From: Kordiimonadaceae bacterium
GTDB taxonomy: Bacteria; Pseudomonadota; Alphaproteobacteria; Sphingomonadales; Emcibacteraceae
DNA length: 64,000 nt
Assembly: GCA_018660225.1 (NCBI GenBank)
Contig: JABJKT010000137.1
Span: 1 to 64,000, forward strand
Direction of reading: 5' to 3'
Both the position numbers and the translations under genes were made by a program. This document shows, one piece after another, positions 3,873 to 5,148 of this stretch; positions within the stretch are counted from its first letter, which is position 1, and each line of letters opens with the position of its first letter. The notes beneath the pieces are model-generated. The model ran no database searches. It was not told where the DNA came from and saw only the letters and a program-made list of their open reading frames with translations.

Positions 3873-4643
3873 CTAAACATCAAGCTCACACCAGATCGGT
3901 GTGTGATCCGATGGGCGCTCGCGGCCTCGCGGAGTTCGGTCGATGTCGCATTTGATCAGTTTGTCGGCGGCTGTGGGGCTGAGTAGCAAGTGATCAATCC
4001 TGACACCATTATCTTTTTGCCACGCGCCAGCCTGATAATCCCAGTAGGTATAATTGGTGCCGGATGGATAAAATACCCTCAGCGCATCTGTAAGGCCAAG
4101 GTTTAGCATGGTGAAGTAGCGGTCAATGCTTTCCGGCTGGCATAAGGCGTCACCAGCAAATCTTGACATGTCGTAGCAGTCTTCGTCTTTAGGGCAGACA
4201 TTATAATCACCGCCCAAGACGAAATCTTCTTCCAGTTCAAGAAGGTCTTTCATCCGTGCGATCAGTCGGTCCATCCAAGCGATTTTATAATCGAACTTTG
4301 GCCCCGGTAGCGGATTGCCATTAGGCAGATATAAACCACCAACCCTAACGGTGTTAACTGTTGCTTCTATATAGCGTGCCTGTTCGTCGCTGTCATCGCC
4401 TGGCAGGCCGATCATCACGTCTTCTATCGGGTATTTGGAAAGGATCGCAACACCATTATATGTTTTTTGGCCGTGGGTTTCGACATTATAACCGAGGTCC
4501 TCAATTTCCATGCGCGGAAAGTTCTCATCTGTGCATTTTAGTTCCTGTAGCACGACAACGTCAGGATTAAATTCAGTCAGCCATTCGGTAACCCGAGGAA
4601 GCCGTGCTTTGATCGAGTTCACATTCCAGGAAGCAATTTTCAT
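3873..4643 (-). CDS. xthA: Exodeoxyribonuclease III
   Basis: MKIASWNVNSIKARLPRV..., LQELKCTDENFP, GGDYNVCPKDEDCYD, RIDHLLLSP, SDHTPIWCEL. Confidence 0.95.
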   Translation of the reverse strand: MKIASWNVNSIKARLPRVTEWLTEFNPDVVVLQELKCTDENFPRMEIEDLGYNVETHGQKTYNGVAILSKYPIEDVMIGLPGDDSDEQARYIEATVNTVRVGGLYLPNGNPLPGPKFDYKIAWMDRLIARMKDLLELEEDFVLGGDYNVCPKDEDCYDMSRFAGDALCQPESIDRYFTMLNLGLTDALRVFYPSGTNYTYWDYQAGAWQKDNGVRIDHLLLSPTAADKLIKCDIDRTPRGRERPSDHTPIWCELDV

Positions 4644-4645
4644 CT

Positions 4646-4806
4646 AGGGTCAGTACCTGTTAATTTCATACAATTCTGTCGCATCATAAGGCAAAATAGG
4701 TAGAAAACAAGCGCAGACAATGGTAATTCCATTGGCAAGTTTGTTCTTCGCACATATTTTGTCTTATGCACGAGCAGAATGGATGAAATTAACAGGTACT
4801 GACCCT
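4646..4806. repeat. Imperfect palindrome of about 161 bp with perfect 24-bp terminal inverted repeats (MITE/REP-like hairpin element)
   Basis: AGGGTCAGTACCTGTTAATTTCAT at 4646-4669 is the exact reverse complement of ATGAAATTAACAGGTACTGACCCT at 4783-4806; the central CAATGG-TAATT-CCATTG (4718-4734) shares the same symmetry centre (4726), and intermediate segments are also partly complementary. Confidence 0.85.
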
Positions 4807-5148
4807 TTATACCGCGAAGGAAGAACCGCAGCCGCATGAGGCCGTGGCGTTAGGATTTTTGACAACAAACATTGAACCGGCGAGCTCTTCGGTGAAGTCA
4901 ACCTCGGACCCCATAAGATACATAATGGATAAGCCGTCGACCAGCATAGTAGCACCGTCACGTTTAATAACGAGGTCATCATCTTTGCTATCTTCGACAA
5001 GAGCAAAATCATATTGAAAACCCGAGCATCCGCCGCCATTAATGGAAATACGGAATTTAAGGTCTTTATTGCCTTTGCTATCCACCAAAGTGTTAATGCG
5101 ACGTGCTGCACTTTCGCTTAATGTCACTGGTGAGTTATCGTTTGTCAT
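4807..5148 (-). CDS. erpA: Iron-sulfur cluster insertion protein (HesB/IscA/ErpA family)
   Basis: GGGCSGFQYDF ... ASCGCGSSFAV conserved cysteines. Confidence 0.9.
   Translation of the reverse strand: MTNDNSPVTLSESAARRINTLVDSKGNKDLKFRISINGGGCSGFQYDFALVEDSKDDDLVIKRDGATMLVDGLSIMYLMGSEVDFTEELAGSMFVVKNPNATASCGCGSSFAV

Follow-up and report, generated by a model that had tools for sequence, protein, structure and literature searches.

A short mobile element between erpA and xthA in a Kordiimonadaceae genome, a probable IS5/IS427-linked MITE with a widely retained Y-shaped interior

Results

The element described here lies between erpA and xthA in a 64,000-nucleotide stretch of a Kordiimonadaceae genome, which is called the window below. 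Features of the locus are as follows.

4645..4807, no strand assigned: complete window copy of the element, 163 bp with its terminal TA and TT counted
4646..4669, plus strand: left terminal inverted repeat (TIR) arm, 24 nt, exact reverse complement of 4783-4806
4783..4806, minus strand: right TIR arm, 24 nt, exact reverse complement of 4646-4669
4671..4678, plus strand: inner conserved part of the outer stem, CAATTCTG, pairing with GCAGAATGG and near-invariant among ten long copies
4774..4782, plus strand: inner conserved portion of the outer stem, GCAGAATGG, identical among ten long copies
4699..4753, plus strand: apical module of hairpin 1 (stem, GCA/AA internal loop, apical stem-loop), covariance model R1
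4764..4768, plus strand: deletion scar, the remaining TTATG repeat at the site of the lost hairpin 2
4807..5148, minus strand: erpA, upstream neighbour, an ORF with matches in 32 of the 33 genomes searched
3873..4643, minus strand: xthA, downstream neighbour, an ORF whose start codon directly adjoins the element

The element is short, bounded by TIRs, and contains neither a transposase ORF nor any other. A sequence-only reading of the window had described the 24-nt arms as exact reverse complements and the element as the entire erpA-xthA gap, and both statements hold: the arms match base for base, and the gap is bounded by the erpA end at 4807 and the xthA start at 4643, the two genes being on the minus strand. 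Extended by three bases, the arms reach 27 nt with 96% complementarity, and the left arm is of the same TIR type as that of IS5-family insertion sequences. The proposed hairpin was confirmed by folding, with the 173-nt stretch around the arms giving -83.1 kcal/mol (z = -13.9) on the plus strand and -79.1 kcal/mol (z = -12.8) on the minus strand, and none of 200 shuffles equalled the fold energy of this region. The left end is TA (4645-4646) and its right counterpart TT, i.e. the terminal duplication of the window copy is degraded.

Comparison with relatives showed the erpA-xthA junction to be empty in ten congeneric genomes, with a spacing of 3-6 nt between the genes. In an eleventh (G007, L213) there is a 14-nt TIR remnant, AGGTCCTGACCCTA, between the erpA stop and the xthA start, as if an older copy had once been lost from the junction. 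A second site, occupied in genome G024, has no element in several genomes from the genus to which G024 belongs, with the exact joint blurred by divergence. A clean 2-bp duplication against an empty site was seen neither at the window copy, with its TA and TT, nor at the divergence-blurred G024 site. Within the host genome (an assembly of 3.04 Mb in 219 contigs, 94.6% complete) there are three longer complete copies of about 265-272 bp, on contigs 140, 162, and 218, and one truncated element end on contig 70, for a total of four copies plus the truncated end; the element is thus multi-copy. Because orthologous junctions are empty and copies occur at unrelated loci, the element is mobile, having been inserted between erpA and xthA, and is not a locus-specific RNA. 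Its insertion put a long hairpin between genes that are 3-6 nt apart in relatives. A regulatory structure particular to erpA-xthA and conserved there by selection would explain why a gap between two same-strand genes is filled so exactly, but the ten empty junctions refute it, copies sit at unrelated loci, and we give it practically no credence. The suggestion of a structured RNA between two cotranscribed genes is accordingly unsupported as something specific to this locus, which is empty in relatives, and the alternative offered with it, a non-autonomous MITE, is supported by the multiple copies, the empty sites, TA ends at YTAR, and TIRs common to transposase-bearing insertion sequences. A lone TIR-like sequence, TAGGGTCAGGGCCTATTAAT, was also observed on host contig 199 (L024:2528-2547), close to an ORF end and with no visible partner.

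Relative to the long copy on contig 140, the window copy is missing 109 bp exactly between TTATG direct repeats, and on this alignment it is an internally deleted form of an element of about 272 bp. The deleted 109 bp comprise hairpin 2, the second of two, and the foot of hairpin 1. Short forms of about 160-190 bp are present in other genomes too.

A scan of public genomes with the TIR TAGGGTCAGGACCYATTAAT matched at least 120 stretches, and among the matches listed all had alphaproteobacterial titles (Rhizobiales, Rhodobacterales, Sphingomonadales, Rhodospirillales, and others) with the sole exception of one labelled Pseudomonadota only. In an even draw of 289 alphaproteobacterial genomes, TAGGGTCAGGACCYATTAAT was present at two or fewer mismatches in 21, compared with one match for the reversed control. 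Inverted TIR pairs had two main spacings, 265-283 bp, containing no ORF, and 830-849 bp. Both ends carried TA in 46 of 60 element copies, and 117 of the 120 ends had a pyrimidine as the base just outside, giving a YTAR target. The strict 26-nt TIR pattern used in relatives missed most divergent copies, and plasmid and phage collections had no match to the long form. Two Y-shaped elements, L029:1484-1740 in genome G031 and L048:1371-1645 in genome G019, had a clearly different TIR of TTAGGCAGCGTACTCATTAATTATG type with the arms still matched, which suggests adaptation to another transposase. Unpaired TIR matches, many near contig ends, were seen on contigs of Paracoccus zeaxanthinifaciens (L103, L112, L121, L129, L135, L146), a reported carrier of the IS427-group element ISPze1 (PMC3281130).

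The TIR TAGGGTCAGGACCYATTAAT also flanks insertion sequences of 830-851 bp with a transposase in two overlapping ORFs. This transposase matches PF13340, DDE_Tnp_1, and NCBIfam NF033580 (IS5-family transposase), the last scoring 148.6 bits for the second ORF against a cut-off of 110 and 99 bits for the first ORF by itself, and the same ends occur on transposase relatives within the host's order and family. Members of the IS427 group in Paracoccus are 832-865 bp long with two overlapping ORFs and mostly 2-bp repeats, one member having a 4-bp repeat, and the partner insertion sequence agrees with that group in size (about 830-865 bp), 13-21-bp ends, and a 2-bp repeat (PMC3281130). By TIR TAGGGTCAGGACCYATTAAT, terminal TA, and YTAR target, the element ends can be assigned to an IS5-family insertion sequence of IS427 type. 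Sequence common to the MITE and the insertion sequence is limited to about 20 bp of the end, the interior not being insertion-sequence DNA, and because just these ends are shared, trans-mobilisation by an IS427-type transposase is something we infer. No IS5 transposase of IS427 type was detected in the 219-contig, 94.6%-complete host assembly, nor was there any match to the Y1_Tnp profile, for which five control genomes were positive. With neither enzyme found in the host, the mobilising transposase would have come from elsewhere, have since been lost, or be absent from the assembly. The sequence-only reading had raised possible mobilisation by an IS200/RAYT-like Y1 transposase, and this was contradicted by the missing Y1_Tnp and by a partner that encodes an IS5-family DDE transposase. 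A REP/BIME-type palindrome moved by such a Y1 enzyme would likewise be palindromic, intergenic, and multi-copy, but the long TIRs, the TA at both ends, and the DDE-transposase partner, together with the Y1_Tnp result, make it extremely improbable.

Long copies fold as a Y made up of an outer stem some 30 pairs long, hairpins 1 and 2, and a short CC..GG junction hairpin. The consensus of ten long copies from the host's bacterial family has 109 pairs with 95.8% of cells paired, and pairing among these copies falls to about 40% when partners are slid by 1-3 columns. At 53 of the 109 pairs there is a double compensatory change in at least one copy, a result matched by none of 500 shuffles; cells with two-sided change number 153, and one-sided (wobble) changes are rare beside them. 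Arm positions 21-27 in 61 class-wide copies had an identity of 0.76 within a copy versus 0.38 between copies (permutation maximum 0.49), and insertion-sequence arms, in which pairing does not go beyond position 20, had an identity of 0.19 over the same positions. Three-stem topology was found in the both-strand folds of 43 of 53 long copies, and most full copies keep to a length of 265-283 bp. Copies across Alphaproteobacteria have widely diverged in sequence with the Y fold retained in most, which is unlike an ordinary transposon remnant.

Both hairpins have the same apical design, in which a stem of 8 bp is followed by a GCA/AA internal loop, then by a further stem that begins with G-C and usually G.U, and last by a small loop. 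Class-wide, the distance of this module from the nearer element end is 67-71 nt and in most cases 68-69, and in hairpin 2 the module is inverted relative to hairpin 1, giving the element an approximate two-fold symmetry. Covariation was detected at 14 of 15 module pairs across 34 distinct examples. Covariance model R1, built from distinct module examples with the window copy left out, finds the window module at 4699-4753 with 31.6 bits (E = 3.2e-7), and its matches in the host genome are to known elements only. Among 20 R1 loci inspected in relatives, 16 or 17 had TIR-like sequence, usually beginning exactly 54 nt from the module match, and one of those without it looks like a chance match. 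Genome G046, from another family of the same order, has 19 module matches (L262, L272, L278, L282, L285, L287, L289, L290), and with so many copies this lineage is suited to tracing arm changes.

It could be argued that the element is an ordinary IS5 copy with an internal deletion, its interior being neutral debris and its folding incidental, in keeping with ends common to IS427-type elements and with the existence of deletion derivatives of about 160-190 bp. However, beyond the ends the interior is not insertion-sequence DNA, most full copies are held to the narrow length range above, the identity of element arms at positions 21-27 is not approached by insertion-sequence arms, and the module keeps a fixed position class-wide. 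We regard such an origin as very unlikely.

Discussion

Patterns detected are best accounted for, and in our judgement probably explained, by an IS5/IS427-linked MITE whose Y interior is kept by copying of one arm from the other and by selection on the module. The mismatches counted across distinct contexts were balanced, with 59 G.T versus 58 A.C and no strand preference. Because a single selected RNA strand should show G.U in excess of A.C, this balance points to pairing that seems to be maintained at the DNA level. When hairpins are each read on the module-bearing strand, a choice made post hoc, there is a modest excess of G.T (50 versus 26, p = 0.008), and this excess and the conserved G.U of the module would also fit recognition of a single strand or an RNA.

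An alternative explanation is a mobile structured RNA, spread as DNA, with the Y fold selected as a transcript such as an sRNA, mRNA stabiliser, terminator, or insulator. The deep covariation, the conserved internal loop with its conserved G.U pair, and the G.T excess with each hairpin on its own strand are consistent with this, as is the observation, from a crude ORF test, that 42 of 50 copies leave ORFs uninterrupted and few lie between divergent genes. Nevertheless it would not account for the lack of overall strand preference, and the double Watson-Crick cells are far above the one-sided changes, unlike drift through G.U. Moreover, the two modules are on opposite strands, so that no single transcript has both in the same sense, and the Rfam 15 covariance-model search gave no match at gathering score, with sub-threshold chance matches only. 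Weak matches to miRNA and sRNA models were below gathering scores and were rejected as chance hairpin matches. Overall we consider a selected transcript rather unlikely, though with appreciably more in its favour than the deleted IS5 copy.

Returning to the MITE, several steps in its maintenance may be proposed at least preliminarily. An IS427-type DDE transposase supplied in trans would bind both TIRs and move the element. Arms would most likely stay matched through template switching, in which one arm of a folded-back strand serves DNA polymerase or repair as the template for the other, a process that the portions available of two reports document as a route to matched hairpin arms (PMC8794818, PMC8604942). 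Selection would hold the unpaired GCA/AA loop, the spacing, and the element length; it is invoked for the unpaired module positions because copying alone would erase them. Finally, the reason for such selection would probably be recognition of the extruded hairpins by the transposase or a host protein; what the fold does is the least secure step of the proposal. A further and more tentative reading, which we think possible but would not favour, is that across the class the interior itself is a selected DNA architecture, i.e. a pseudo-two-fold Y or cruciform with two inverted hairpin modules, each with the conserved GCA/AA loop, which the transposase or a host protein recognises as folded single strands, and with arms held identical by self-templating. 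If this reading is true, the family would represent a DDE-type element using folded DNA. The use of folded DNA is usually seen as a trait of IS200/IS605 elements or of integron attC sites.

MITEs are commonly regarded as the decayed ends of transposons. In the family described here, a complex fold and a loop motif persist in several alphaproteobacterial orders despite many changed stem sequences. The family offers a natural experiment on two questions, namely whether the folding of DNA has a bearing on DDE transposition and by what means long inverted repeats remain perfect, its arms changing together with few wobble intermediates. Model R1 is a searchable module for annotating such elements, which no Rfam 15 family covers. 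The terminal sequences TAGGGTCAGGACC and GGGTCAGGACCCATTAAT were not found in the open-access literature, most subscription journals and ISfinder lying outside that search. As a MITE family it is of a known kind; for a class-wide selected or self-correcting Y, no description was found in the open-access literature, and naming in ISfinder is possible.

Several known systems resemble the element in part. REP/BIME elements with RAYT transposases are palindromic, intergenic, and dispersed, as is the window element. They differ from it in that its host has no Y1 transposase and that it has long DDE-type TIRs and TA ends. The partner elements are like the IS427 group of IS5 known from Paracoccus in their 830-851 bp, ends of about 20 bp, TA, two overlapping ORFs, and DDE transposase (PMC3281130), whereas the window element lacks a transposase and has only its ends in common with that group. 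Template-switched hairpins, as described in the portions available of the two reports cited above, are similar in that paired arms change jointly, with no wobble intermediates, but the subjects there are RNA hairpins and yeast genes, and here template switching would be maintaining a mobile element (PMC8794818, PMC8604942). Closest in general form are other bacterial MITEs: MITEPye1 of Paracoccus yeei (PMC11578231) and the MITEs of Coxiella (PMC5896051) are, in the accessible text of these papers, likewise short, gene-less, intergenic, and foldable, with TIRs common to a full insertion sequence. For MITEPye1 the partner is IS1182, of another insertion-sequence family, and an Mfold structure alone is reported in the sections available (PMC11578231). 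Compared with both, as far as those texts describe them, the present family is distinguished by an interior fold conserved class-wide, by compensatory change in its stems, and by a repeated loop module.
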